Below are positions 5,226-54,120 of a DNA stretch of 64,000 bases, piece by piece. Numbering within the stretch: the stretch's first letter is position 1; the number at the start of each line of letters is the position of its first letter. Both the position numbers and the translations under genes were made by a program. The notes beneath the pieces were generated by a model. The model was not told where the DNA came from and did no database searches. It saw only the letters and a program-made list of their open reading frames with translations. This stretch comes from Myxococcota bacterium (GTDB lineage: Bacteria; Myxococcota_A; Polyangia; JAAYKL01), in contig JASJCT010000035.1 in NCBI GenBank assembly GCA_030065855.1, forward strand, positions 1 to 64,000, in the 5' to 3' direction.

Positions 5226-5306
5226 TTTCTACTTTCTCAAGCAGTAAATAGAGGGAGAGCTAAAATGACCGCGACGACCTCGTGGCAAAGGCTTTCTCAG
5301 AAGCCC

Positions 5307-5338
5307 GTGTCTGAAAGACACAGGTCCCGGATTGCCAC
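5307..5338. promoter_or_regulatory. 32-bp tandem-palindrome element, site B (SOD / kaiC)
   Basis: Half-sites in order: GTGTC, 5 bases, GACAC, AG, GTCCC, 5 bases, GCCAC. The first palindrome is perfect. It lies in the divergent region between SOD and kaiC, 82 bases upstream of the SOD -24 element. I found no convincing -24/-12 element facing kaiC at the spacings used elsewhere. Confidence 0.8.
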
Positions 5339-5456
5339 ACCCCATTGCAGCCGTATCGCCACGGTCAGCGGCTCGCACAGAGCGCGCCAGCCGCCAAGGC
5401 GCTTTGTGTTTGCCACTGTACTTTTCAAGCGATATTGAAACTTCTTGACAGAACGC

Positions 5457-12135: not shown

Positions 12136-12213
12136 ATCAGGAACAGCGAATCACGAAGCGCTATAACCAGACGCGTCTTGGTCGGTAGGAGGAAAATCAG
12201 AGGCGGACGCGGC

Positions 12214-12245
12214 GTGTCGAATCGCCACGCGTGGCAATGGGCCTC
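12214..12245. promoter_or_regulatory. 32-bp tandem-palindrome element (phasin operon)
   Basis: Half-sites in order: GTGTC, 5 bases, GCCAC, GC, GTGGC, 5 bases, GCCTC. It is upstream of the phasin promoter and 62 bases from the stop of the NtrC-type regulator gene. The central GCCAC-GC-GTGGC is itself a perfect 12-bp palindrome. Confidence 0.8.
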
Positions 12246-12306
12246 TCAGATATTTTATTAGGAATGCTGACTTAAAAAAATAGGGGAGACAGCAAGAGAT
12301 ATTCCC

Positions 12307-13674
12307 TCACTCCGACTTCCGCCCCTCCAATCGCGCCAACTTGCGGTACAGGCTCTTGCGGTCCACTCCCAGTATGCGCGCGGCCTGGGCCTTGTTTCCG
12401 CCCACAAGGCCCAACACTTGTTGGATGTACCGGCGCTCGAGCTCTGTCAGGGTAACGAGCTCGTTGGGATTGTCGTCACTGACGATCGCATGCGCAGCCT
12501 TGTAGTCGCGGATCCTCTCGGGGAGGTCGTCCACCGTCAGCTTGTCTGTGCCGGTAAGAGCCATGGCCCTCTCGATGCTGTTCTTCAGCTCGCGCACATT
12601 CCCTGGCCACGAGTATCCGAGCAGCTTCTCGGCCGCGGTCGTGCTCAATCCGCTCACGTCCCGTTGCATCTGAGATGCGAACTGATCGATAAAATGATCG
12701 GCGAGCAGCAGGATATCCCGGCCCCGCTGTCTTAAGGGCGGCATATCGATGTGCACAACGTTGAGCCGGTAGAAAAGATCTTCTCGGAATCCCTTGTCTT
12801 CCACCACTTGAGCCAAATCCCGATTCGTCGCAGAGATGACCCGTACATCGAAAGGCGTTTCAGTATTTCCCCCCACCGGCCTGACCGTGCGTTCTTCGAG
12901 GGTGCGCAGAATCTTTGCCTGCAAACCGAGGGGCATATCGCCGATTTCGTCGAGAAATAAAGTGCCTTTGTTTGCCTTGCCGAATAGGCCTATTCGAGTG
13001 GATTTCGCATCAGTAAACGCACCTTTCACATGTCCGAAAAGCTCGCTCTCGAGCAGGTTTTCCGGCAGGGCCGAGCAGTTGACGGCCACGAAAGGGCCGC
13101 CTTGTCTCTTGCTTCGTTTGTGCAGAGCGCGGGCCACGAGCTCCTTGCCGGTGCCGCTCTCACCGGTGATTAGCACGGTGACCTCGGTCTCAGCGGCCTT
13201 GGAAACGAGGGAGAAGACTTTATTCATCGGAGCGCTTTCGCCTTGGAACTCCTCGAACCCTTGGGACGCCTCCACGGTTCGACGCAAAAGCGTGACCTCC
13301 TTGTGCAGATGCCTGTGGTGAATCGCGCGATTCAAGGTGATGTGGAGTAGCTCGATATCGATCGGCTTGGTGATGAAATCGTAGGCACCGGCCCGCATGG
13401 CGGCGATCGCCGTCTCCAGGCTGCCGTAGGAAGTGATCACGATCACGGGCGTGTCTGGGCGGTTTTGATGGATCATCTCGGTTAGCTCTATTCCGTTCAT
13501 CTCGGGCATATTGAGGTCGGTCACAACAGCATCGAACTCCTCGTTCGACACAGCTTCAAGGGCCGCCGCCGCGTCGTACCGTAAACAAACCTGAAATCTT
13601 CGTTTTTCGAGTTGCGTGCCTGTCAGCTCGCAGAGTTCCTTGTCGTCATCCACGATGAGTACTTTTTTGGTCAT
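12307..13674 (-). CDS. NtrC-family sigma-54-dependent response regulator
   Basis: A 455-aa protein when started at the ATG at 13674 (MTKKVLIVDDD); a TTG at 13692 would add six residues. Receiver domain 1-115 with phospho-acceptor Asp53 (VVTDLNMPEMNG) and Lys103. AAA+ domain about 143-370 with Walker A GESGTGKE (171-178) and Walker B GTLFLDEIGDM. The sigma-54-contacting loop reads GAFTDA (218-223) in place of GAFTGA and keeps the essential Thr. A Fis-type helix-turn-helix at the C-terminus (NKAQAARILGVDRKSLYRKL) would bind a palindromic enhancer. It follows a kinase gene on the same strand and is the only sigma-54 activator in the window, so it is the best candidate to bind the 32-bp elements (inference). 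Confidence 0.94.
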   Translation of the reverse strand: MTKKVLIVDDDKELCELTGTQLEKRRFQVCLRYDAAAALEAVSNEEFDAVVTDLNMPEMNGIELTEMIHQNRPDTPVIVITSYGSLETAIAAMRAGAYDFITKPIDIELLHITLNRAIHHRHLHKEVTLLRRTVEASQGFEEFQGESAPMNKVFSLVSKAAETEVTVLITGESGTGKELVARALHKRSKRQGGPFVAVNCSALPENLLESELFGHVKGAFTDAKSTRIGLFGKANKGTLFLDEIGDMPLGLQAKILRTLEERTVRPVGGNTETPFDVRVISATNRDLAQVVEDKGFREDLFYRLNVVHIDMPPLRQRGRDILLLADHFIDQFASQMQRDVSGLSTTAAEKLLGYSWPGNVRELKNSIERAMALTGTDKLTVDDLPERIRDYKAAHAIVSDDNPNELVTLTELERRYIQQVLGLVGGNKAQAARILGVDRKSLYRKLARLEGRKSE

Positions 13675-13714
13675 TGATGCACATGCTCCCAAGCAAATGT
13701 TGATATCTTAATCC

Positions 13715-13750
13715 ATGCAAAATCAATGCAAACAATGCAAAATCAATGCA
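13715..13750. repeat. Two direct copies of a 16-bp sequence with 20-bp period before the regulator gene
   Basis: ATGCAAAATCAATGCA occurs at 13715-13730 and 13735-13750, in phase on the helix (20-bp period). It lies 41-76 bases upstream of the regulator's ATG. It may be an operator or a UP-like site for this gene. It does not fit the GG-N10-GC rule of sigma-54 promoters. Confidence 0.6.
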
Positions 13751-17893: not shown

Positions 17894-17909
17894 TGCAAAT
17901 ATTGAGCCA
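17894..17909 (-). promoter_or_regulatory. Sigma-54-like promoter of the GNAT gene
   Basis: Minus strand reads TGGCTCAATATTTGCA: TGGC at -24, TTGCA at -12, GG-N10-GC. Predicted start near 17883, so the ATG at 17879 would be almost leaderless. The GG is 72 bases from the 32-bp element at 17981. Confidence 0.7.
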
Positions 17910-17980
17910 TTTTCAAGCAGGCACTAACTTTTCGTCCAAGATTCAGGCATTAAAATATGATGGCAATCTCAGCCTGCCCT

Positions 17981-18012
17981 GTGGCAAATCGACACAGGTG
18001 GCAGATAGCCAC
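17981..18012. promoter_or_regulatory. 32-bp tandem-palindrome element, site C (GNAT)
   Basis: Half-sites in order: GTGGC, 5 bases, GACAC, AG, GTGGC, 5 bases, GCCAC. The second palindrome is perfect. It stands between the GNAT promoter and the ompA-like remnant, the same neighbourhood as site D at 27251. Confidence 0.8.
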
Positions 18013-18041
18013 ACTACAATATCCCACTTGGATCGCTTATC

Positions 18042-18367
18042 CTATGAGTTGCGAGGCATTTCGTTGATTATCAGTACTTCGATACGGCGATTCTTCTCAC
18101 GGCCTTCTTTGGTACTGTTAGAAGCCACCGGCGCGATTTCTCCCATGCCCTTGGATTGGACGCGTTTAAGGTCAATCTTTCCAAGTTTCCCTTGGAGTCC
18201 GTGTGCCCCGCCACGAGAACCGCTTCCAGGTATTGGATGACTGTAGCGATCTCGCCGTCCATGTTGGTATGCACATCCAGACTCGAGAACTTGAGCACAT
18301 TTAGGCCCAAGCAGCTCAATTCAGCGTCGCGACGTTTCATTCCTTGTTGGACTGTTGTCGAGGTCAT
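18042..18367 (-). pseudogene. Decayed OmpA-like C-terminal domain (paralogue of 27375-28901)
   Basis: In one frame the remnant reads VIQYLEAVLVAGHTDSKG, matching FPKATVLVTGHTDSKG of the intact gene. About 24 codons are then missing and the frame shifts. The continuing frame reads KIDLKRVQSKGMGEIAPVA then EGREKNRRIEVLIINE and stops at 18044-18042, nearly identical to the intact C-terminus. The N-terminal three quarters of the gene, including the lipoprotein signal, are absent. The block downstream of its stop carries element site C, as the intact gene carries site D. Confidence 0.85.
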
Positions 18368-27138: not shown

Positions 27139-27154
27139 TGCAAAGGATATGCCA
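27139..27154 (-). promoter_or_regulatory. Sigma-54-like promoter of the pha operon
   Basis: Minus strand reads TGGCATATCCTTTGCA with TGGCA at -24, TTTGCA at -12 and GG-N10-GC. Predicted start near 27127, leader about 86 bases before phaE. The GG lies 97 bases from the element at 27251. Confidence 0.75.
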
Positions 27155-27250
27155 ATTTGCGTGGAGCAGGGTCTCTCTTTATAAGCCAGCTGTCGGCGAT
27201 CGCCTTTGTTTTGTCGTTAAAAAATCTGATGGCGAGGTCGAGACTGTCCT

Positions 27251-27282
27251 GCGGCGGATCGTCACATGTGGCAGATGGTCAC
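27251..27282. promoter_or_regulatory. 32-bp tandem-palindrome element, site D (pha operon)
   Basis: Half-sites in order: GCGGC, 5 bases, GTCAC, AT, GTGGC, 5 bases, GTCAC. It sits between the phaE promoter and the 3' end of the ompA-like gene. Its right flank (ATCCCA and CACTTGGATTGCG) is also recognisable beside site C. Confidence 0.75.
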
Positions 27283-27374
27283 ATACTTCTATCCCATTTT
27301 ACAACAGCGTTTGAGGATTCACTTGGATTGCGACTGGGTCGATCGGGGGTTCGGTTCATCGACCTGCTGTTTGC

Positions 27375-28901
27375 CTATTCGTTGATGATAAGCACTTCGA
27401 TGCGGCGATTCTTTTCACGGCCGTCTTTAGAGTCGTTGGAAGCCACCGGCGCGTTTTCTCCCATGCCCTTGGATTGCACGCGCTTAGGGTTAATCTTTCC
27501 AACCGTGGTCAGGAACTCGGCCACGCTCTCAGCGCGCCCGATGGAAAGTTTAAGGTTCCTGTCCTCGCTGCCCTTTGAATCCGTGTGACCCGTCACGAGC
27601 ACGGTTGCTTTGGGGAAGATGTTGATGGCAGTAACGATTTTGTCGAGGATGCCAAAGTTTTTTGATCCGATATCCACGCTCCGTCTGGGAAAGTCGAAAC
27701 CATGGGCATCGATGACGATGTTGTCACCCTTGCGAGAGACATAGGCTTCACTGGCGACAAATAGCGCCTGAACGTCGTCGAATCGCTTCTCAGCGGCGGC
27801 TGATTGCTGCCTGGCTGCCTCGGCAGCGGCCAATTTTGATGCGGCTTCCGCCTGCAACTTAGCGATCTCGGATTTGCTGGCCTTCTGCATGCCTTCGAGC
27901 TGTTGCCTGAGCTCTTCGAGCTGTGCTTTATGCGTTGCCATCAGGTTGGCCATCTCCTTGCTCATCTTCTTTTGTCGGGCTGCGGACATTTTTCGCATAT
28001 CTTCGATAGCCGTGAGCAATCCCTCGATGGCGCTCCGGATCGACTTGACCGCCGCTGCGTCGGATTCATCAAACGGCAAATCCTGCTGAAGCGGTGCGTT
28101 GATGACTTCGAGTTGCGCCTGGTGCCAGAGCACGATATCCTCAAACTCGTAGTCATCCTCATCGAACATCTTTGCCAGTGCGGTAATATCCATGGCCCGA
28201 CCGGCAAACCAGATCGCCAACCGAGCGCGTTCGTTGGCTTTTTCAGTATTGGTGCGGTCCGCTTCGAGAACTGAGCTCACGAGTGCCAGCTCGGCCTTTG
28301 CCTTATCGAGAGTTTTGGGCGCGTAGTCATCAGCGTCCATGTCCTCAGCTTTTTTAACAGCCGCCTCGGCCGCTGCTTTGGTGCCTTCCTTGAGCGCTTT
28401 GACCTCAAGATCCGCATAAGCGGCAATCAATTCCGGGTGACGTTTCCTGGCCTCGCTCAGTTTCCTGTCCTCGATGAGACGCGTCGCAGATTTCAGTGAC
28501 GCGTCGGCCTTTTTGAAGGCCGACGCATATAGCGAATCAGCGCCCTCGGCCTTGGCGCGTTCCCGGGTCTCCAGCACCTCAGAGAACTCGTCATTGACCA
28601 CGGTCATCGTTTCGACCATCTGGTCATACACGGAGAGCCCCTCCTTGGCCGCTCGATTGGCCTCGTCTTTTTTCGCGTCTTTTGCGAGGCTTACCGCCTT
28701 TTCCAGCAGCTCATTTGCTTTGGCGTGCGCTTCGGGCGCAAGCAGCTCAGATCCCTTGCCCCTGGCGTCCGCGAGGTTCAAGCTGAGCTGGTTGACAACA
28801 TCGTACTGACGCAGGATATCTTGCCGAGTGAGCCCTCCTGTGGCACACCCCGCCGCTAGAATGGATGCGAGAACGACAACTTTCGATTTGACAGACATCA
28901 T
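27375..28901 (-). CDS. OmpA-like peptidoglycan-associated lipoprotein with DUF4398-type helical region
   Basis: 508 aa from the ATG at 28901 (AAGGAG 9 bases upstream). The lipobox LAAGC gives a lipoprotein anchored at Cys. The middle part is a long, Ala/Lys/Glu-rich helical region with DUF4398-like repeats (AHAKANELLEKAVSLAKDAKKDEA), then a coiled coil (LAAAEAARQQSAAAEKRFDDVQ). The C-terminal OmpA domain starts around residue 385 and has the peptidoglycan-binding motif TGHTDSKGSEDRNLKLSIGRAESV and the Arg-containing DGREKNRRIEVLI. It would tether the outer membrane to peptidoglycan. A decayed paralogue lies at 18042-18367. A sigma-54-like promoter lies about 146 bases upstream. Confidence 0.88.
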   Translation of the reverse strand: MMSVKSKVVVLASILAAGCATGGLTRQDILRQYDVVNQLSLNLADARGKGSELLAPEAHAKANELLEKAVSLAKDAKKDEANRAAKEGLSVYDQMVETMTVVNDEFSEVLETRERAKAEGADSLYASAFKKADASLKSATRLIEDRKLSEARKRHPELIAAYADLEVKALKEGTKAAAEAAVKKAEDMDADDYAPKTLDKAKAELALVSSVLEADRTNTEKANERARLAIWFAGRAMDITALAKMFDEDDYEFEDIVLWHQAQLEVINAPLQQDLPFDESDAAAVKSIRSAIEGLLTAIEDMRKMSAARQKKMSKEMANLMATHKAQLEELRQQLEGMQKASKSEIAKLQAEAASKLAAAEAARQQSAAAEKRFDDVQALFVASEAYVSRKGDNIVIDAHGFDFPRRSVDIGSKNFGILDKIVTAINIFPKATVLVTGHTDSKGSEDRNLKLSIGRAESVAEFLTTVGKINPKRVQSKGMGENAPVASNDSKDGREKNRRIEVLIINE

Positions 28902-29046: not shown

Positions 29047-29062
29047 TGCATATTCCATGCCA
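29047..29062 (-). promoter_or_regulatory. Sigma-54-like promoter of the OmpA-like gene
   Basis: Minus strand reads TGGCATGGAATATGCA: TGGCA at -24, ATGCA at -12, GG-N10-GC. Predicted start near 29035, leader about 134 bases. No full 32-bp element was found upstream, only a poor GTGTG-N5-GCCGT at 29117. The rest of 28902-29307 shows no gene or clear signal. Confidence 0.6.
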
Positions 29063-29307
29063 TTCATGCATTGCAACAAACAGCCAAATGTCAAATCCCC
29101 GCTTAAATACTCAATAGTGTGACGCTGCCGTACTTCTTGGATAAGGTATCCCGTTCAAACCAAAAAATATTGCACAAAACAGAATAATGGGACAAATGGA
29201 GAAACTGTCGGCCGTACTGACCAGGGACCATTTGAAAGTTATTCTTGCGCGAACCCGAATCGTCGACCTGTAAAGACCGACCTGTAAGGGCCTAGAGAGG
29301 TTAATCG

Positions 29308-30072
29308 ATGAATCTTTTGCTCTTCATTCTAGCGATCTTCATTTCCTTCGTGGTGGTGCGTATTGGTGCGGTCGCATTCAATCTAACGGGTATGTCTTGG
29401 TCGCAAGCCAAGTTCCAATCCCTATCGTGCTTCTCCGGCACCGGCTACACCACGCGCGAAGCAGAAATGATTGTCAGTCATAGGATAAGAAGGCGGATCG
29501 CGAGCACCTTGATGATCTTAGGGAACGCGGGTTTGGTAACGCTCATCGCAACCTTTGCCAACTCGATAAGCACTAGAGGGATTACCGGCATGTTTGAGAT
29601 TCCCTTCTTACATGTCTTCTTGCCGACGGCCCTTGTCCCCTTGGTAAATCTGGTTATTATTGCCGTTATCCTGATTATACTCGTTAAGCTTTTCGGAGGC
29701 GAAAAGTTGCGTCGCCGGATGACCGCCTACGCGAGAAAGGTACTGATCAAGAAACAGATCGTTCAGGAAGTGCCTTTTGAGGAGCTTTTGATCTCAGGTA
29801 GCGATTATGGTGTCACGCGACTTCAGGTCGGTGTGGGGTGCCGGATCATCGGCAAGACCTTACTCGACGCCAAGCTCAGACAGCAGGATATCACAGTCCT
29901 CGCCATAGAGCGCCGAAACAAAGTAATCCCCAATCCTGGGCCGAACGAATCGGTGCAGGAAACTGATCAGTTGCTTTGTTTCGGCAAGCTTGAAAACATA
30001 AGGGCCCTAGCGGCCGATGTTACGGGGTTGGCATCGGCTGGCGACGAAGAACGTCAATGGAACCAGGAATAG
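29308..30072 (+). CDS. Membrane protein with TrkA C-terminal (RCK_C) domain
   Basis: A 254-aa protein. Three hydrophobic segments at about 3-25, 68-90 and 103-130 flank a pore-like sequence SLSCFSGTGYTTREAEMIVSH that resembles the K+-channel/TrkH selectivity region (G-T-G-Y/F-T-T). Residues about 160-245 are a TrkA_C domain (LQVGVGCRIIGKTLLDAKLRQQDITVLAIERRNKVIPNPGPNE) that binds a ligand in K+ transport and channel proteins. It may gate K+ or another cation. It starts with a standard ATG after a leader containing a duplicated GACCTGTAA. No partner gene is adjacent. Confidence 0.75.
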   Translation: MNLLLFILAIFISFVVVRIGAVAFNLTGMSWSQAKFQSLSCFSGTGYTTREAEMIVSHRIRRRIASTLMILGNAGLVTLIATFANSISTRGITGMFEIPFLHVFLPTALVPLVNLVIIAVILIILVKLFGGEKLRRRMTAYARKVLIKKQIVQEVPFEELLISGSDYGVTRLQVGVGCRIIGKTLLDAKLRQQDITVLAIERRNKVIPNPGPNESVQETDQLLCFGKLENIRALAADVTGLASAGDEERQWNQE

Positions 30073-30196
30073 GGAACGAAAAAATGCGGGGTCAACAACC
30101 TCGTCTTTTTCATCCCACGGCAGATTGATCCGCCACAGTCATGAAAGGTATGCGACTGCTATGTCAGCTGTATTGTGTTTTGTACGGTGTTGTCCT

Positions 30197-30228
30197 GTGT
30201 CGATCAGACACATGTGGCGAATAGACAC
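30197..30228. promoter_or_regulatory. 32-bp tandem-palindrome element, site E (no adjacent promoter)
   Basis: Half-sites in order: GTGTC, 5 bases, GACAC, AT, GTGGC, 5 bases, GACAC. It is the best match of all. It lies in a 315-base gap between two convergent genes, where no promoter should be needed. No -24/-12 element occurs within about 150 bases on either side. The nearest is the V-ATPase promoter, 654 bases to the right. Confidence 0.75.
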
Positions 30229-30387
30229 GTCGGCAACTCCTGCTCAGGAAAAATTCGATTAAAAAGGAATGTTCTTTAGGGTCCTTGTCTATTAAAGGCT
30301 GGGATCACGACAGTTTTCTTATTTCAGGGATGACTCTCATTGGGGAGCCAGTGACGGATATATAGAAGTGGTGGGTACTAGGACGGT

Positions 30388-30720
30388 TCATTGTTCCAGG
30401 CTCTTGATGTCTTTCATAAGGAAATAGGTCAAGATGACTCTGATGACGACGACGGCTCCCAATTGGCCAAGAGATTCCCAAGTAGGCATCACAGCGGATT
30501 TAACCACGTCGGCTCCCACCAGAAAACCCAATCCGAGAGAAAGAGAATGGCCGAGTCTAAGACGGCTTTTTGTTAGACCAGTGAAATCGTCTTTGTTTTT
30601 GTAGAGAGTTATCATGAATATCCAGATCGCCTGAATACTCCCAATAACAATCACGAAGGCCGCGGCAACTTCCGCAAAATAAGCTGCGTACTCGGCTACT
30701 ATCTTAACGATGTCATCCAT
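30388..30720 (-). CDS. DUF1622 membrane protein
   Basis: 110 aa from the ATG at 30720 (MDDIVKIVAEYAAYFAEVAAAFVIVIGS), ignoring a 10-residue open extension. Three transmembrane helices: about 15-38, 60-82 and 85-103. The segment TKSRLRLGHSLSLGLGFLVGADVVKSAV is the hallmark of DUF1622. Function unknown; the family often occurs near stress and ion-transport genes. Divergent from the V-ATPase operon. Confidence 0.8.
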   Translation of the reverse strand: MDDIVKIVAEYAAYFAEVAAAFVIVIGSIQAIWIFMITLYKNKDDFTGLTKSRLRLGHSLSLGLGFLVGADVVKSAVMPTWESLGQLGAVVVIRVILTYFLMKDIKSLEQ

Positions 30721-30768
30721 TGATGTGCTGCTCCGCCTATGCCACCTCAAGGGAGGCCATTAACTAAA

Positions 30769-30792
30769 CCGAGCGAAGCTCGGATTTTTTTT
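30769..30792 (+). terminator. Intrinsic terminator on the plus strand between DUF1622 and the V-ATPase operon
   Basis: CCGAGC, loop GAA, GCTCGG, then A and eight T (30785-30792). This is a strong terminator for rightward transcription, yet the nearest rightward gene ends at 30072. It therefore suggests an unannotated rightward transcript across 30.2-30.8 kb, antisense to DUF1622. Confidence 0.8.
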
Positions 30793-30882
30793 CTATCCCA
30801 GAAGGACAAGCTCGTCAAAGGCATTACTGCGTTGGAGCTAGTACGACTCAGTCAAATTATAATTTTAGAATAGAATCCGATA

Positions 30883-30898
30883 TGGCACTGCGATTGCA
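30883..30898 (+). promoter_or_regulatory. Sigma-54 promoter of the V-ATPase operon
   Basis: TGGCACTGCGATTGCA matches the sigma-54 consensus TGGCAC-N5-TTGCA exactly. Predicted start near 30909, about 100 bases before the first small gene. No 32-bp element lies within 68-101 bases upstream, where the terminator sits. The closest is site E, 654 bases away. Confidence 0.85.
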
Positions 30899-31009: not shown

Positions 31010-31300
31010 ATGAGAGCTAATCTAGAAGAAGACGGGAAGATTATCGCCAGGAATATAGAAGTTACCGTTACAAGCGGTAAACCTAATCCACAGACCAGGA
31101 AAGTCCCGGCCGACGACTGTCGGTTTAAGATCTCCTCCTCAGTTCACGTGAATATAATCGCCCGACATCGCTTGATTTTTAATAACAATACCGTGCGCAC
31201 ATTGAACATTGATGAAATCTCTGGAGACCATACGACAGGGACGGTGACTCGCCAGATCATCGAAGGAACCCTCGGTTCTTCAAAAATGGTTAAAAAATAG
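31010..31300 (+). CDS. Small protein of unknown function at the head of the V-ATPase operon
   Basis: A 96-aa soluble protein (MRANLEEDGKIIARNIEVTV; DDCRFKISSSVHVNIIARHRLIFNN). Beta-rich pattern, one Cys, no membrane segment. I do not recognise the family. AAGAGGAAAA precedes the ATG. It lies 22 bases before the V-ATPase B gene and shares its promoter, so it may be an assembly or regulatory factor. Confidence 0.6.
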   Translation: MRANLEEDGKIIARNIEVTVTSGKPNPQTRKVPADDCRFKISSSVHVNIIARHRLIFNNNTVRTLNIDEISGDHTTGTVTRQIIEGTLGSSKMVKK

Positions 31301-31322
31301 CAAGAGGAAAGGTAGCCTCCGT

Positions 31323-32663
31323 ATGGTTCAGGAGTTGATTCGTCACACACGGGTGCAGGACATCATCGGGGACGCGATTCGCGTCAAGGCAGAAGGGGCG
31401 GCGTTCGGGGATCTCGCGGTAGTGGAAAACGCCGACGGTGAGGTTTCCCTAGCCAAGGTGGTCGAGCTCAATCGGGACTTGGTGAGCCTCCAGGTGTTTG
31501 CCGGCGGTAAGGGACTCTCCACCGCAGCCAACGTGCGGTTCCTGGGACATCAGCCGGATGTCGTCTATTCCGATAAAATATTGGGCCGGATCTTGAGAGG
31601 CTCGGGAGAGCCTTTGGACGATGGTCCGGATCTCACGGGTGAGCCGCGAATAGCAGTGGGGGGACCCACGGTGAATCCGATGATGCGGATTGTGCCAAAG
31701 AAGATGATTCAGACCAATGTGCCGATGATTGACATCTTCAACAGTTTGGTGGAGAGCCAGAAAATACCCATCTTCTCTGTGGCCGGTGAGCCCTACAATG
31801 AGCTTTTGGCCCGCATCGGCTTTCAGGCAGACGCCGATGTCGTGGTGTTCGGCGGGCTCGGTCTCATCTTCGACGACTTCCATTTTTTCCGAACCGCCTT
31901 CGAGGAGCACGGAGTGTTTCACCGAACCGTCATGTTCGTAAACCAGGCTTCGGATCCCATCGTGGAGCGGCTCCTGATTCCGGACATGGCCTTGGCCGTG
32001 GCTGAGACGTTCGCGGTGGAGGAGAACAAGCGCGTGCTGGTACTGCTCACCGATATGACCGCCTTTGCCGACGCTCTCAAGGAGAGCAGCATCTCCCTGG
32101 AACGGGTGCCGGCCACACGGGGATATACCGGCGATCTCTACACCCAGCTCGCCCAACGGTACGAAAAAGCGTGCGATTTCAAAGGAGCCGGTTCCGTGAC
32201 GATTCTCACGGTGACAACCATGCCCGGCGATGACGTAACCCATCCTGTGCCGGACAATACCGGATACATCACCGAGGGGCAGTTCTACCTGCATGCCGGC
32301 ATGATCGATCCATTCGGCTCTCTTTCAAGGCTCAAACAGCACGTCATCGGCAAGGTGACCCGGGAGGATCACGCCCAGATTATGAACACGATGATCCGGC
32401 TCTACTCCAGCGCAATAGAGGCGGAGAAGAAGCAGGCCATGGCGTTCGAGCTCTCGCCTTTCGACCAGAAGCTGCTTCGATTCGGCGAGCTGTTCAAGGA
32501 GCGATTCATGGATATTCGAGTCTCCCTCGCCCTCGTAGAAGCATTGGATCTCTGCTGGGAGACCCTGGCCGACTGCTTCGGGGCGGACGAGCTGCTGATG
32601 AAACAGTCCCTGGTGGATAAGTACTTTCCCCAAAAGGACCCAGAATTATCAGGAGCCGAGTGA
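31323..32663 (+). CDS. ntpB: V-type ATP synthase subunit B
   Basis: A 446-aa non-catalytic nucleotide-binding subunit of the A3B3 head. Beta-barrel at 1-75, then LGRILRGSGEPLDDGP, and GEPYNELLARIGFQADADVVVFGGLGL, where a P-loop would be in catalytic subunits; the B subunit lacks GxxGxGKT as usual. The conserved MTAFADALKESSISLERVPATRGYTGDLYTQLAQRYEKA follows. It forms the head with subunit A, whose gene is last in this operon. In spirochaete-type operons A directly precedes B. Confidence 0.93.
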   Translation: MVQELIRHTRVQDIIGDAIRVKAEGAAFGDLAVVENADGEVSLAKVVELNRDLVSLQVFAGGKGLSTAANVRFLGHQPDVVYSDKILGRILRGSGEPLDDGPDLTGEPRIAVGGPTVNPMMRIVPKKMIQTNVPMIDIFNSLVESQKIPIFSVAGEPYNELLARIGFQADADVVVFGGLGLIFDDFHFFRTAFEEHGVFHRTVMFVNQASDPIVERLLIPDMALAVAETFAVEENKRVLVLLTDMTAFADALKESSISLERVPATRGYTGDLYTQLAQRYEKACDFKGAGSVTILTVTTMPGDDVTHPVPDNTGYITEGQFYLHAGMIDPFGSLSRLKQHVIGKVTREDHAQIMNTMIRLYSSAIEAEKKQAMAFELSPFDQKLLRFGELFKERFMDIRVSLALVEALDLCWETLADCFGADELLMKQSLVDKYFPQKDPELSGAE

Positions 32664-32664
32664 G

Positions 32665-33291
32665 ATGGCCAAGGTCGCCCTCAGCAAGACCGCGCTTCAA
32701 AAAGAAAGGGACAGCCTTCAACTCTATAGGCGGGTACTACCCTCCCTCGACCTCAAGCGGCTGCAGCTGATGGGAGAGCTGGCCCGTGCCAAATCTCAGG
32801 CGGTTGAGGCTAGGGAGAGGGTTCAACGGGTCTCCGATCTTGTCGCCGAAACCCTGCCGATGCTTGCGAACCGGGAGATGAACCTGTCCAATCTCGTCAC
32901 AGTGGAATCCGTGAATGTCACGAACGAAAACGCGGCTGGGGTGGAGTTGCCCAAGCTCGAATCAGTGGATGTGTCAGTGGCGCCATACTCCCTTATGTGC
33001 ACACCACCGTGGGTGGATGCGGTGATTGACCAACTGAAGCGGATGCTCCATCTCAATGCGGCAGTTCGGATCTTTGACGCCCGCGTGACCGTGCTCAACC
33101 GTGCGGTTCGAAAGGTGACCCAGCGGATCAATCTGTTTGAAAAAATTCTCATACCAAGAGCCATAGAGAATATCAAACGCATTAAGATCTTTCTCTCTGA
33201 CATGGAGCGATCCTCCATTGTACGATCCAAGCTGGCCAAGGCCAAGCGGATCCGGGAGACCGAGGTGCTTCGGCAGGAGGAGGCGTCATGA
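32665..33291 (+). CDS. ntpD: V-type ATP synthase subunit D
   Basis: A 208-aa central-stalk subunit, a long antiparallel coiled coil that rotates inside the head. The family start is LSKTALQKERDSLQLYRRVLPSLDLKRLQL and the end contains RRAVRKVTQRINLFEKILIPRAIENIKRIKIFLSDMERSSIVRSKLAKAK-like helices. It begins 1 base after the B stop and overlaps subunit I by 4 bases. Confidence 0.92.
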   Translation: MAKVALSKTALQKERDSLQLYRRVLPSLDLKRLQLMGELARAKSQAVEARERVQRVSDLVAETLPMLANREMNLSNLVTVESVNVTNENAAGVELPKLESVDVSVAPYSLMCTPPWVDAVIDQLKRMLHLNAAVRIFDARVTVLNRAVRKVTQRINLFEKILIPRAIENIKRIKIFLSDMERSSIVRSKLAKAKRIRETEVLRQEEAS

Positions 33292-35123
33292 GCATTGTTC
33301 CCCTGTCCAAGGTTACCTTCCTCGGCCACCGGGATGACAAGACCGAGATACTTTTGGATCTTCAGTCCTTGGGTTGCCTGCACGTCATTCCGCTTACCGC
33401 CAACCAATGGGCCAAGAACAAGGGAGGACCGACCTCGAACGCCCGGGAGGCCCTCAAGTATCTGCTCAGCTGCGCGCGGAAACGGCATCAGGTGAGCGAT
33501 CCATCCAGGTTTGACGCCGCTTACGTGGAGAGACGGGCCTTGGAGATTCGCGATGAGGTGCACAGCCTTGAGCACGAGCAGGATTTCCTCGAGGCGCGCA
33601 TCAAGGGACTTCGCCCCTGGGGTGATTTCAAGCTACCTCCGAGGGAAGCGTTGGGCGGGTACCGCCTCTGGTTCTATCAGGTGCCGCTCCACGATGTTAA
33701 ACACCTTCAAAAAACCGAGCTAATGTTCGAGGTGGTCACCCGGGACAACCGATTCGCCTATGTGGTGGTGGTGTCAATGGAAGAGCCCCAGGGCATGCCG
33801 GTAGTGCGGACCCGTACCGGCAAAGTCTCCCTTCACGACCTTGTGCAACGGCTTGAGGAGGTGGCGCTCGCTCTCGAGGATTTACAAGCAGAGCGCGCCG
33901 GCCTGACCCGATGGTGCCGCCTCTATGCCTCGTTGCTGTTTCGTTTAGAAGATGGGGAGCAACGTCTCCGTGTCTCCGAAGACACCCTCGATGTGGATCC
34001 CCTGTTTGCCCTGCAGGCGTGGGCCCCTACCGAAAAGGCGGATACCCTCAAAGATTACGCCGACAAGAAGGGGCTCGTTTTCGAGATGATGGCGCCTGCA
34101 CCTGAGGACGCGCCACCGACCCTGCTTCACAACAAACCCTTGGTTGCCAGTGGTCAGGATCTGGTCTCATTTTATATGATGCCCAATTATCGGCTCTGGG
34201 ATCCGTCGTCGATGGTCTTCTTTTCGTTCTCTATTTTTTTTGCCATGATCCTATCGGACGCGGGATACGCTTTGGTGATGCTGGCGGGATTACTCCTCCT
34301 TTGGCGAAAGCTGGGTCGAAGCGATGTGGGACGTCGCATGCGGATTCTATTCGCCCTCCTCACCGTCACCTCGGCTGTGTGGGGAATGTTGGTGGGCAGC
34401 TATTTCGGGTACGGTCCCAAGGAGGGCTCGCTCCTGACCGACCTCCATGTGCTGAGTGTCAACAACTTCGACGTCATGATGAAGCTTTCGATCTTCATCG
34501 GCGTGGGCCACCTGATTCTGGCCAACCTCGCGGACGCGAAACGGCGAGGTCTATCCAAGGACACATTGGTCCCTGTGGGATGGATAACCATCTTTCTCGG
34601 AGCCGTCTCCCTTTGGCTCTCTCAGGACAGGGCTGTAGGCGAGCTGATAGTCAGATCGCTTGGAGGAGACACCTTTTCTGTTCACGAAAAGATGTCGAAT
34701 ACGGGCAGTGGGATGATGATCGCCGGCGCCTTAGCGGTATTGTGTTTCACTCCAGCGTCAGGGCCTGTCCACAAGCAGATCTTTGCAGGGGTGATCTCCC
34801 TCACGAAGATCACGAGCGCTTTCGGAGATGCGTTGAGTTACCTCCGGTTGTTCGCCCTTGGTCTCGCCAGTGCCTCCCTTGCCGTGGCGTTCAACGATCT
34901 GGCGGATCAGGTCAGGGCCGCTTCAGGACCGAGCTTCGGCCTTCTACTCGGCATGATTGTGTTTTTTATCGGACACTCCCTCAACTTCGTGCTCGGGATA
35001 GTTAGCGGATTCATTCATGGACTCCGTCTGAATTTCATTGAGTTCTTCAACTGGAGTATCCCCGAAGAGGGGCGACCGTTCAAAGCCTTTTCCAGAAAGG
35101 AGGCAACATCTTGCACGCGCTGA
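33288..35123 (+). CDS. ntpI: V-type ATP synthase subunit I (a subunit)
   Basis: A 611-aa protein. Residues about 1-300 are the cytoplasmic peripheral part with coiled coils. From about 305 there are seven or so transmembrane helices, including ITSAFGDALSYLRLFALGLASASLAVAFNDLA, where the first Arg (YLRLF) is the essential ion-channel arginine, and HSLNFVLGIVSGFIHGLRLNFIEFF. It forms the ion half-channels against the K ring. It overlaps subunit D by 4 bases and subunit K by 13 bases. Confidence 0.93.
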   Translation: MSIVPLSKVTFLGHRDDKTEILLDLQSLGCLHVIPLTANQWAKNKGGPTSNAREALKYLLSCARKRHQVSDPSRFDAAYVERRALEIRDEVHSLEHEQDFLEARIKGLRPWGDFKLPPREALGGYRLWFYQVPLHDVKHLQKTELMFEVVTRDNRFAYVVVVSMEEPQGMPVVRTRTGKVSLHDLVQRLEEVALALEDLQAERAGLTRWCRLYASLLFRLEDGEQRLRVSEDTLDVDPLFALQAWAPTEKADTLKDYADKKGLVFEMMAPAPEDAPPTLLHNKPLVASGQDLVSFYMMPNYRLWDPSSMVFFSFSIFFAMILSDAGYALVMLAGLLLLWRKLGRSDVGRRMRILFALLTVTSAVWGMLVGSYFGYGPKEGSLLTDLHVLSVNNFDVMMKLSIFIGVGHLILANLADAKRRGLSKDTLVPVGWITIFLGAVSLWLSQDRAVGELIVRSLGGDTFSVHEKMSNTGSGMMIAGALAVLCFTPASGPVHKQIFAGVISLTKITSAFGDALSYLRLFALGLASASLAVAFNDLADQVRAASGPSFGLLLGMIVFFIGHSLNFVLGIVSGFIHGLRLNFIEFFNWSIPEEGRPFKAFSRKEATSCTR

Positions 35124-35563
35124 TTATTACGCTTGGCTGGATTGGCATTTTTGCACCGACAGCGTTCGGCGCCATCGGCAGTATCCTGGGGTGTGCCCGA
35201 GGGGGACACGCCGCCTGCGGCGCCATGCTCGAGACCGAGAGCGGCCATGGCCGTTATGTCGGCGTCTCGGCCCTGCCGTCTTCCCAAACCATTTACGGCA
35301 TTGTGGTAATGCTGACCCTCAACCGCGACGTTTCTACTGCGAACGCGCCGGGCATCTTCGCCATCGGCACCCTAGTCGGGATCACCATGATGCTCAGTGC
35401 CATGGCACAGGGGGCATTGTGCGCATCGGCGATCAACGTCACCAAGAGCAAGCCCGAGGTGTTCGGTCTCTCTATCGCCCCGGCAGCGGTGGTGGAAGGA
35501 TTCGCCGTGTTCGCGTTCGTGTTCGCCTTGGTTCTGGCCGGCGGACTGCCCACGGGAGGCTAG
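35111..35563 (+). CDS. ntpK: V-type ATP synthase subunit K (rotor ring), duplicated hairpin
   Basis: A 150-aa proteolipid of four transmembrane helices, that is two fused hairpins. Only the fourth helix carries the ion-binding Glu129 (SIAPAAVVEGFAVFAF). Gln59 in ALPSSQTIYGIV and Gln100 in LSAMAQGAL match positions that bind sodium in the Enterococcus hirae NtpK ring, so a Na+-coupled enzyme is plausible (inference from family knowledge). AAGGAGG lies before the start. Overlaps subunit I. Confidence 0.92.
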   Translation: MHALIITLGWIGIFAPTAFGAIGSILGCARGGHAACGAMLETESGHGRYVGVSALPSSQTIYGIVVMLTLNRDVSTANAPGIFAIGTLVGITMMLSAMAQGALCASAINVTKSKPEVFGLSIAPAAVVEGFAVFAFVFALVLAGGLPTGG

Positions 35564-35566
35564 ATT

Positions 35567-36223
35567 ATGAGTGATGCACATTCCGTGGCATCAGGGGTAC
35601 AGGGACTGATTACGCGGCTACGGAACGAAGGCGTGGCAGCCGGTGAGAAGCGGGCCGAGGAGATCATCAAAGACGCCGAAGCCCAAGCCCTGGAGATTGT
35701 CGCCAGCGCACAAAAGGAGGCTGAGACGCTGCTGCAAAACAGCCGCGCCCAGCTCGAACAGGAGCTTGCCGCTGGCAAGGCCGCGTTCAAAGTGGCTATC
35801 CGGGATACGAGACTCGAGCTCGACGAGGAGCTCAAAGCCGTGTTTGCCGCCAATGTCCGTCGCCTCATTGCTGTCGAGCTCAAAGACAAGGCCTTTTTGA
35901 GAAACCTCATTCTAGCAGTGGCGGGTCGCACTCGAGAGGCCATCCCCGATACCAGCGCCCTCGACATTCTCCTCGGCAAGGAAAGTCTCGATAACAGCAC
36001 CGACATCGGCAAGGAATCCCTTAGGGAGTTCGTCCTCGGAGTCTCCGGCTCCATGCTCAGGGAGGGGGTTTCCCTGCGTCCGGCCGGAACAACCGGGGCC
36101 GGCATTCGAATTCAGCTCAAGGGAGAGGATGTGGAAATCGATTTGACCCAAAACACCCTATCGGATCTCATCCTGAAGCACCTGCTGCCTAGATACCGAA
36201 AGATCGTGGAAGGGGTTGATTAG
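35567..36223 (+). CDS. ntpE: V-type ATP synthase subunit E
   Basis: A 218-aa peripheral-stalk subunit. N-terminal two thirds is an Ala/Glu-rich coiled coil (EGVAAGEKRAEEIIKDAEAQALEIVASAQKEAET), and the C-terminal globular domain binds the top of the head. It lies 3 bases after subunit K. In spirochaete-type operons E is the first gene; here it is fifth. Confidence 0.88.
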   Translation: MSDAHSVASGVQGLITRLRNEGVAAGEKRAEEIIKDAEAQALEIVASAQKEAETLLQNSRAQLEQELAAGKAAFKVAIRDTRLELDEELKAVFAANVRRLIAVELKDKAFLRNLILAVAGRTREAIPDTSALDILLGKESLDNSTDIGKESLREFVLGVSGSMLREGVSLRPAGTTGAGIRIQLKGEDVEIDLTQNTLSDLILKHLLPRYRKIVEGVD

Positions 36224-36224
36224 G

Positions 36225-36911
36225 ATGGCAAACCATCAATACTACATGCTGCTGTCGAGCCTGCCGGCGCTCCAGCGATTTGACCTGGCGGAGCGGTTGC
36301 CCATCAGCCGGGAGCGCCTCACCAGCCGAATGACCATGCTGCATCCAGAGGATGCCGAGCTCCTCAAACGGGCCACCAATTTCTTTGCTTGGTTTCGGCA
36401 ATCCGCAACCCTTGCCGATGACGCCATGACCGTGGGTTATCAGGGTCTAGCCGAGCTCGTAGAAGCGCGGGGGCTAATGAAATTGTTCGGGCTGCCCATC
36501 AACCTCCGCACCATCATTGCGGCCCTCAGAAGGAGACTTCTCGGTCGGGAAGCCCCGCGGGCAGGGGAAAATTGGGGGGCTGGACCACTTGTGCCCCATA
36601 TCGTTCGGCACTATGAGGCGGCAGACTTCGGACTCCAAGCAGTCTACCCCTGGATTACCGAGGTCAGGCACCATATCGAAGCCGGTGCTGCTCGGGATCT
36701 TGAAAAACTCATGTGTAGCCTTATCTGGAAACACTTCGACCGCCCCTATGACAGGGGTCCCTTTGGCATCGAGGCGCTCACCGCTTACCTCTTCAAATGG
36801 AGCGTTCTCGACCAGTGGCTCTCCCAGGACCGAGCTGGAGCCCTAAATCGATTTGATCAATTGGTAGCTGAGGTTACCGGTCAATGGGAGGCGCATTTCA
36901 ATGGTATCTGA
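36225..36911 (+). CDS. DUF2764 family V-ATPase-associated protein
   Basis: 228 aa from the ATG at 36225 (MANHQYYMLLSSLPALQRFD; AAGGGG 9 bases upstream). A TTG at 36216 gives an alternative 231-aa form. The start YYML-SSLP and the internal helical pattern match DUF2764, which is encoded between E and A in V-ATPase operons of spirochaetes, Chlamydiae and Bacteroidetes. These operons lack recognisable C, F and G genes, as this one does. A role as a substitute for the C subunit (rotor cap) has been supposed. It overlaps subunit A by 11 bases. Confidence 0.85.
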   Translation: MANHQYYMLLSSLPALQRFDLAERLPISRERLTSRMTMLHPEDAELLKRATNFFAWFRQSATLADDAMTVGYQGLAELVEARGLMKLFGLPINLRTIIAALRRRLLGREAPRAGENWGAGPLVPHIVRHYEAADFGLQAVYPWITEVRHHIEAGAARDLEKLMCSLIWKHFDRPYDRGPFGIEALTAYLFKWSVLDQWLSQDRAGALNRFDQLVAEVTGQWEAHFNGI

Positions 36912-38721
36912 CCAGCAACGAGTGACCGAGAATCACCCCGACAACAACAGCAATGTCCGCGTAACCGCGGTGCGAGAGAGCCTCGTGACGATTGAGGCCC
37001 AGAACACACCTATTCTTAAAAACGAGGTGGGCTTCGTCTGCGTGGGTAAGGAGCGACTAATGGCCGAAGTGCTGCGCATTCAAGGCCGCAGCGCGGACAT
37101 GCAGGTATTCGAGGATACCCGAGGAGTAAAAGTCGGGGATCGAGTGGACATGACCGGCCGGTTGCTCTCGGTGGCGCTCGGGCCCGGGCTGCTCGGTCAG
37201 GTGTTTGACGGCCTGCAGAATCCGCTGGCCACGTTGGCTGAGAAGTACGGATTCTTCCTGCCTCGCGGGGTAGATCTGCCGCCCCTCGACCAGCGCCGCA
37301 AGTGGGCGTTCACTCCCGCCGTGACCGTCGGGGATTGGATTCACGCCGGCGAGGCCATCGGCACCGTGCCAGAGGGACATTTATCCCATAAGATCATGGT
37401 TCCGTTCAATACCAAGGGGGAATTAGAGGTAACCTGGATTCAACAGGGCAGCTTCACCGTAGACTCTCCCATTGCGCGGATACGCGACAGAGACGGCGAG
37501 GAAAGGACCCTTGCGATGGTCCAGGAGTGGCCAGTGAGACGACCCATTCCGGAAAAGATGTTCAAGCTTCGGCTCGCCAAACGCAGGTATCCAAGCGTCC
37601 CCCTTTCCACCACTACGAGAATTATCGACACGTTTTTCCCAATCGCCAAGGGGGGCACCGGCTGTATTCCCGGTCCCTTCGGCGCCGGCAAGACCGTGTT
37701 ACAAAGCCTTGTCGCCAGGTACGCCGCCGTGGACATCGTCATTATCGTGGCTTGCGGTGAACGGGCCGGTGAGGTAGTGGAGACTATCAAGGAGTACCCG
37801 GAAACAAAGGATCCCCGCACCGGCGGATCCCTCATGGATCGGACCATCATCATCTGTAATACTTCGTCCATGCCGGTGGCCTCCCGGGAGGCGTCCATCT
37901 ATACCGGGGTTACCTTGGGTGAGTACTATCGTCAGATGGGATATGACGTCCTGCTCATCGCCGACTCCACCTCGAGGTGGGCCCAGGCCATGCGGGAAAC
38001 AAGCGGCCGCATGGAGGAGATCCCCGGCGAAGAGGCATTCCCGGCCTATTTGGACTCCACTATCAAGAGCGTCTACGAAAGGGCCGGTGTGCTGGAATGC
38101 CCGGACAGCACCGAGGGGAGCCTGACCATGATCGGCACGGTCTCCCCAGCCGGCGGCAACTTCGAAGAACCGGTGACCCAGGCGACCCTTGCCACGGTAA
38201 AGACCTTTCTGGGGCTCTCCTACGATCGGGCCTACAAACGGTTCTACCCAGCCATCGATCCCCTCATGTCCTGGTCCCGGTATCTAGATCAGTGCAAGAT
38301 GTGGTACGATGAAAACCTCGGTCCAGAGTGGGTGGACGACGTTAAAGCAATGATCGACCTACTCACCGAAGGCGAGACCGTCTACCAGATGATGCAGGTC
38401 ACCGGTGAAGAGGGAATCTCCATGGAGGATTATCTCGTTTGGCAGAAAGCGACCCTCCTCGATATGGTCTATCTACAGCAGGACGCCTTCGACGACGTGG
38501 ACGCCTCTATGTCCAGGGAGCGCCAGAAAGCAAGCTTTTTCCTGCTAAAGAAGCTCATCCAGCAGAATTACAAATTCAGGGACAAAGCTGAAGCCCACGA
38601 TTTCTTCACCCGCCTCACCGGCCTGTACAAAAACCTCAACTACAGCGCCGAGGAGTCCCCGCTATACAAACGGTATATCGGTGACATTGAAGCCTTGACC
38701 GAGGCGTTTGTCTCTGCTTAA
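36901..38721 (+). CDS. ntpA: V-type ATP synthase subunit A (catalytic)
   Basis: A 606-aa catalytic subunit. Beta-barrel at about 20-90, the A-type insertion at about 115-215, Walker A GPFGAGKT at 258-265, Walker B VLLIADSTSRWAQAMRE, and the GEEAFPAYL segment. Converts ATP energy to rotation or the reverse. It is the last gene of the operon, an unusual position, and converges with the glutaredoxin-like gene with 10 bases between the stops. Confidence 0.95.
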   Translation: MVSDQQRVTENHPDNNSNVRVTAVRESLVTIEAQNTPILKNEVGFVCVGKERLMAEVLRIQGRSADMQVFEDTRGVKVGDRVDMTGRLLSVALGPGLLGQVFDGLQNPLATLAEKYGFFLPRGVDLPPLDQRRKWAFTPAVTVGDWIHAGEAIGTVPEGHLSHKIMVPFNTKGELEVTWIQQGSFTVDSPIARIRDRDGEERTLAMVQEWPVRRPIPEKMFKLRLAKRRYPSVPLSTTTRIIDTFFPIAKGGTGCIPGPFGAGKTVLQSLVARYAAVDIVIIVACGERAGEVVETIKEYPETKDPRTGGSLMDRTIIICNTSSMPVASREASIYTGVTLGEYYRQMGYDVLLIADSTSRWAQAMRETSGRMEEIPGEEAFPAYLDSTIKSVYERAGVLECPDSTEGSLTMIGTVSPAGGNFEEPVTQATLATVKTFLGLSYDRAYKRFYPAIDPLMSWSRYLDQCKMWYDENLGPEWVDDVKAMIDLLTEGETVYQMMQVTGEEGISMEDYLVWQKATLLDMVYLQQDAFDDVDASMSRERQKASFFLLKKLIQQNYKFRDKAEAHDFFTRLTGLYKNLNYSAEESPLYKRYIGDIEALTEAFVSA

Positions 38722-53983: not shown

Positions 53984-54083
53984 TAAAGATTCGCTCGATA
54001 ACATTCAACTCCCTGCGTCCGGAGCGCAGTCGGTTGGCGATAGCAATGAATCCCGCACTCGCGTAGATACTATTCACTGGTGT

Positions 54084-54115
54084 GTGGCCATTAGACACAT
54101 GTGCCATTTGGCCAC
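54084..54115. promoter_or_regulatory. 32-bp tandem-palindrome element, site F (tamAB / SLC12-like)
   Basis: Half-sites in order: GTGGC, 5 bases, GACAC, AT, GTGCC, 5 bases, GCCAC. It lies midway between two divergent -24/-12 promoters, 101 bases from each GG. Confidence 0.8.
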
Positions 54116-54120
54116 TGTTC

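Follow-up and report, generated by a model that had tools for sequence, protein, structure and literature searches.

Several bacterial activators are known to work from a distance: NRI (NtrC) sites remain active after being shifted more than 1 kb, RocR acts over 1.5 kb and from as far as 15 kb downstream, and SoxR acts over at least 1.7 kb (PMC4941409). The RocR enhancer of Bacillus subtilis is an intergenic element between rocG and rocABC which serves, by looping, a sigma-54 promoter 1.5 kb away as well as a second promoter nearby (PMC4941409), and this arrangement is like the one we propose here for site E, a tandem dyad element of a Myxococcota bacterium. However, the RocR enhancer lies close to one of its promoters, whereas site E has no promoter nearby; the regulator family and the site sequence differ too, and the function of site E is a prediction. 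RocR does not belong to the two-component response regulators. The movable NRI sites at glnAp2 of E. coli consist of two dyads with a 5-bp spacer and are bound by a response regulator of the NtrC type (PMC4941409). They differ from site E in site sequence and in target genes. In their natural position these NtrC sites lie near the glnAp2 promoter. Within the Myxococcota, the NtrC-like regulator NmpR of Myxococcus xanthus controls several stress operons through two GCGCA-N5-TGCGC dyads upstream of sigma-54 promoters, most of these dyads being 14-15 bp apart (PMC11841059). The family of site E can be likened to it by description, with GTGKC-N5-GMCAC in place of the NmpR half-sites and with dyads that abut at a centre spacing of 17 bp.

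In the window, by which we mean the whole analysed stretch of 64,000 nucleotides, we found seven copies of the tandem element (A to F and one before phaE). The six copies other than E each lie 67-100 bp upstream of a -24/-12 site that is followed by a start codon, and most of these start codons carry a Shine-Dalgarno-like sequence. Element A (2745-2778, no strand assigned) is placed between a promoter for HSP20 at 2663(-) and a weaker one at 2847(+) for catalase, which is possibly its second target; the right-hand sigma-54 site on the catalase side (2745-2862) reads CGGTACAGATGTTGCT. Element B (5306-5339, minus strand) is 81 bp from promoter 5210(-) of an Fe/Mn superoxide dismutase gene. Element C (12213-12246, minus strand), 61 bp after the stop codon of a regulator gene, is 78 bp from promoter 12120(-), and its target is a 100-aa ORF preceding a glycosyltransferase. 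Element D (17980-18013, minus strand) is 71 bp from promoter 17894(-) of a GNAT acetyltransferase gene, and the element upstream of phaE-phaC (27250-27283, minus strand) is 96 bp from promoter 27139(-). Element F (54083-54116, no strand assigned) has a promoter on either side, each at a distance of exactly 100 bp: 53968(-), which belongs to Omp85, and the divergent 54216(+), which belongs to an amino-acid permease. Taken together, the seven near-uniform elements mark a gene cluster of about 51 kb that is tied to a single NtrC-type regulator family of Myxococcota-like genomes and whose targets are predictable from sequence. We also noted that the 3' end of an OmpA gene and the adjoining element are duplicated (17900-18240 and 27150-27560), with a core of 125 nt at 86% identity (18060-18184 against 27378-27502) beyond which elements D and phaE remain alignable; of the two copies, the one near 18 kb resembles the remains of a gene.

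The probable binder of the element is an NtrC-type response regulator encoded at 12307-13692(-), which has a receiver (Response_reg), an AAA+ domain (Sigma54_activat) and a Fis-type HTH (HTH_8), and which reached none of the NCBIfam equivalog cut-offs. Its GAFTGA-like loop reads GAFTDA, a working variant in PMC4641369. The 7.08-Mb genome, a draft with 5.4% estimated contamination, encodes sigma-54; pattern searches of it with at most one mismatch returned the element only on the contig of the window and at position 81587 of contig C72, and a copy with three mismatches is present at position 11401 of contig C51. The two paralogues most similar to the regulator (63%) are encoded on contigs C72 and C51, next to these elements. 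In one relative (G082) four elements cluster around a homologue 55% identical to the regulator, and on contig C84 of another (G040) a 56% homologue is found about 2.4 kb from an element. Three times the element follows the stop codon of a regulator gene, at 3 bp in G082, at about 30 bp on C72 and at 61 bp in the case of element C. The element therefore has the marks of a UAS, namely paired dyads upstream of sigma-54 promoters, linkage to a regulator gene and an NtrC-type domain set in that regulator. We take it to be the enhancer of the 12307-13692 regulator family, the binding itself being predicted from sequence. Because, in this genome, the element was found only on this contig and next to these paralogues, and because the G082 homologue lies inside an element cluster, site E is very probably an enhancer for the regulator of the window as well.

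Site E itself (30196-30229, no strand assigned) consists of TGTGTCGATCAGACACA directly joined to TGTGGCGAATAGACACG, that is, of two GTGKC-N5-GMCAC dyads in tandem, 17 bp from centre to centre, and in a pattern match it fits the tandem consensus GTGNCNNNNNGNCACNTGTGNCNNNNNGNCAC with zero mismatches on both strands. Its tandem PWM score is 42.0 bits; when the window was dinucleotide-shuffled 30 times, the highest score was 20.9. An earlier note on this DNA had called it the best-formed copy, which holds with the matrix built from the window (42.0 against 41.1 for site D) but is reversed once relatives are added to the matrix (35.6 against 38.0). As that note had also stated, site E is located between two gene ends: the gene of a TrkA_C-domain protein (29308-30072, plus strand) stops 124 bp to its left and a DUF1622 gene (30388-30720, minus strand) stops 159 bp to its right. 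Its further statement that no promoter is near proved correct. On neither side did we find a sigma-54 promoter within 250 bp of site E; by our hand-weighted consensus the best scores there were 11.0 on the right, which is under the median of random stretches, and 13.0 on the left, where the GG is missing. Searches for GG-N10-GT variants and for unconstrained best scores gave no local sigma-54 promoter either, and no sigma-54 site was found around site E at the spacing typical of other copies (44-127 bp).

The nearest candidate target is further away. TGGCACTGCGATTGCA, at 30883-30898(+), is the sole zero-mismatch match to TGGCAC-N5-TTGCA in the window and lies 654 bp to the right of site E, 112 bp before the first ORF of a V-ATPase operon (31010-38721, plus strand), which comprises a 96-aa ORF, the gene of subunit B at 31323, further subunit genes and that of subunit A at 36901-38721. 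The consensus promoter, its separation from site E and its lack of an element at the usual distance, all pointed out before, are borne out by our analysis; no dyad of at least 6 bits occurs between site E and 30883(+). A second element-less sigma-54-like site had been missed. It is TGGCATGGAATATGCA at 29047-29062(-), weaker in that ATGCA replaces TTGCA, 1134 bp to the left of site E and facing away from it, 145 bp before the SD-ATG (28901) of an OmpA-type lipoprotein gene. It has no tandem element of its own, only a single weak 7-bit dyad at 29188, a level that is reached about 23 times per shuffled window. Hence two sigma-54 promoters without their own element lie within looping range, one on each side of site E.

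The likeliest reading in our view, to which we would give about an even chance, is that site E is a distal and possibly two-sided enhancer that acts by DNA looping. The phosphorylated regulator of 12307-13692 would bind both dyads of site E as two dimers and assemble into an AAA+ ring, and this ring would reach sigma-54 RNA polymerase through looping of the DNA. The target would be the closest sigma-54 promoter that lacks its own enhancer, namely the one before the V-ATPase operon, and the OmpA-lipoprotein promoter would perhaps also be served. We infer the binding to site E, the looping and the identity of the promoter served from the arrangement of these sites. A distal enhancer for the V-ATPase operon, and perhaps for the OmpA lipoprotein, seems the simplest account because there is no promoter near site E, because 30883(+) and 29047(-) have no element, because elements are linked to OmpA-family genes in G082 and because of element F; since element F is equally far from two divergent promoters, two-sided use is plausible. 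That site E, from between convergent gene ends and without a proximal promoter, co-activates both outward promoters is a more tentative possibility. Long looping to the V-ATPase promoter, one of the two functions suggested earlier for site E, thus stays the best remaining explanation, partly supported by the element family, the element-less promoter and precedents over 1-15 kb. Against it, all other copies in the window are at most 100 bp from a promoter, and V-ATPase operons of other species have neither the element nor a convincing sigma-54 site in the stretches checked: the element is absent from the named loci and stretches that we scanned, and no convincing sigma-54 site was seen within 1.5 kb upstream of those operons that we checked. 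Distal sigma-54 enhancers are already known, and site E would add one more case to them without revealing a new mechanism. If the reading is true, a natural enhancer without a proximal promoter would join the few cited cases of long-range bacterial activation.

The other function suggested earlier was transcription from site E of an unannotated RNA that would run rightward, antisense to the DUF1622 gene, and end at a terminator. The terminator part stands: an intrinsic-terminator-like hairpin (CCGAGCGAAGCTCGG-ATTTTTTTTC) with an 8-T tail is present at 30769-30783(+), 541 bp to the right of site E, and no rightward ORF precedes it. The RNA, however, we consider highly improbable. Besides the missing sigma-54 site, we found no sigma-70-like site between site E and the hairpin, and Rfam returned no family above threshold over 29.0-31.5 kb, with one sub-threshold chance match outside the interval. 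The hairpin region folds no better than its shuffles (z 0.02), and terminator-like hairpins are just modestly more frequent in the window than by chance (14 against 8.2 expected from mononucleotide shuffles). The hairpin may shield the V-ATPase promoter from upstream transcription. We rejected the idea that it is a repeated genomic terminator, as it occurs once in the genome.

A possible history of the interval may explain why site E lies so far from the promoter. Subunit B of the V-ATPase is 82% identical to that of a Desulfobacca sp. and 78% to that of Methylobacter, compared with about 60% in relatives of the class, which suggests that the operon was acquired by transfer. B subunits with 69-82% identity are scattered over Desulfobacterota, Methylobacter, Planctomycetota, Nitrospirales, Chlamydiae and Roseibium, a distribution that points to wide horizontal transfer. 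The DUF1622 gene, which lies between site E and the V-ATPase promoter, is sporadic in the class: 28 of its 318 genomes have it, and the 13 other genomes of the family all lack it. The G+C content is 44-46% from site E to the 96-aa ORF, compared with 57.5% in subunit B. By arithmetic, site E would stand at the 67-100 bp typical of its sister sites if 554-587 bp around DUF1622 were taken out. On this arithmetic and the circumstances given above, the DUF1622 gene may have been inserted between an enhancer and a promoter that were once close; a search for direct repeats of at least 7 bp marking such an insertion found none. A candidate promoter for DUF1622 at 30729(-) was rejected, as it overlaps the Shine-Dalgarno region and its RNA would begin at the ATG. 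The arrangement between site E and the promoter was not shared by any relative, whether we followed V-ATPase B in 80 loci and the class genomes or DUF1622 and the element in 318 genomes.

Such a history would also fit a site that has lost its function. Site E might be a relic or decoy, still bound by the regulator but driving no promoter and perhaps just titrating the regulator, if the arrival of DUF1622 or of the V-ATPase operon removed or displaced its original target. The signs of acquisition, the sporadic DUF1622 gene missing from family relatives and the lower G+C content would all agree with this, and elements without a visible promoter exist on C72 and in relatives too. Although such a relic is credible, we regard it as rather unlikely, given that one would expect a site out of use to degenerate, whereas site E is among the top two by the window matrix, and given that a near-consensus promoter without an element is found 654 bp away. 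If, instead, site E is a working distal enhancer, it would show how control of an acquired V-ATPase operon passed to a stress regulator although no enhancer lies close by.

The V-ATPase promoter could also be served by any of many other NtrC-type regulators, as the genome has 168 first-look candidates for this type. One of them might act through an unrecognised site in 30784-30883, in which case site E would serve only the OmpA promoter 29047(-) or nothing. An AT-rich palindrome, AAATTATAATTT, precedes the -24 element by about 18 bp, and OmpA-family genes adjoin the element in G082, both of which favour this alternative. No repeated NtrC-type dyad was seen in 30784-30883, though, and the operon belongs to a cluster whose other sigma-54 promoters use the element, so we consider a separate regulator clearly unlikely.

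The relatives show both how regular the spacing is and where it fails. In an incomplete set of elements found by pattern, 20 of the 27 copies examined in relatives have a -24/-12 site at 44-127 bp; outside the window, nine of 29 elements, with C72 and C51 counted in, have no recognisable promoter nearby, and hence some element sites may be idle. Of these nine, five are near-identical members of a single repeated family in G082 and G084 (loci L223, L224, L225, L226 and L221), whose elements (CGAGGCACTYTGCCTCGTGTGACATCTYGCCACG) have conserved flanks and precede a family of similar genes with no recognisable sigma-54 site. Two elements of G082 lie before OmpA-family genes. A cluster of elements on contig C111 of G082 (L216) is found with a Na+/H+ exchanger, a CLC channel with CBS domains, OmpA proteins and receiver proteins, a content hinting at a regulon of ion homeostasis and the envelope. 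Just upstream of the NtrC-type regulator gene of the window, at 13710-13749, two 20-bp tandem repeats (AAWCMATGCAAAATCAATGC) were noted. In another relative (G037, L191:7082-7115) the element beside a 56% homologue of the regulator reads GGGGCGATCTGCCCC twice, and it is possible that this half-site drifted together with its regulator.
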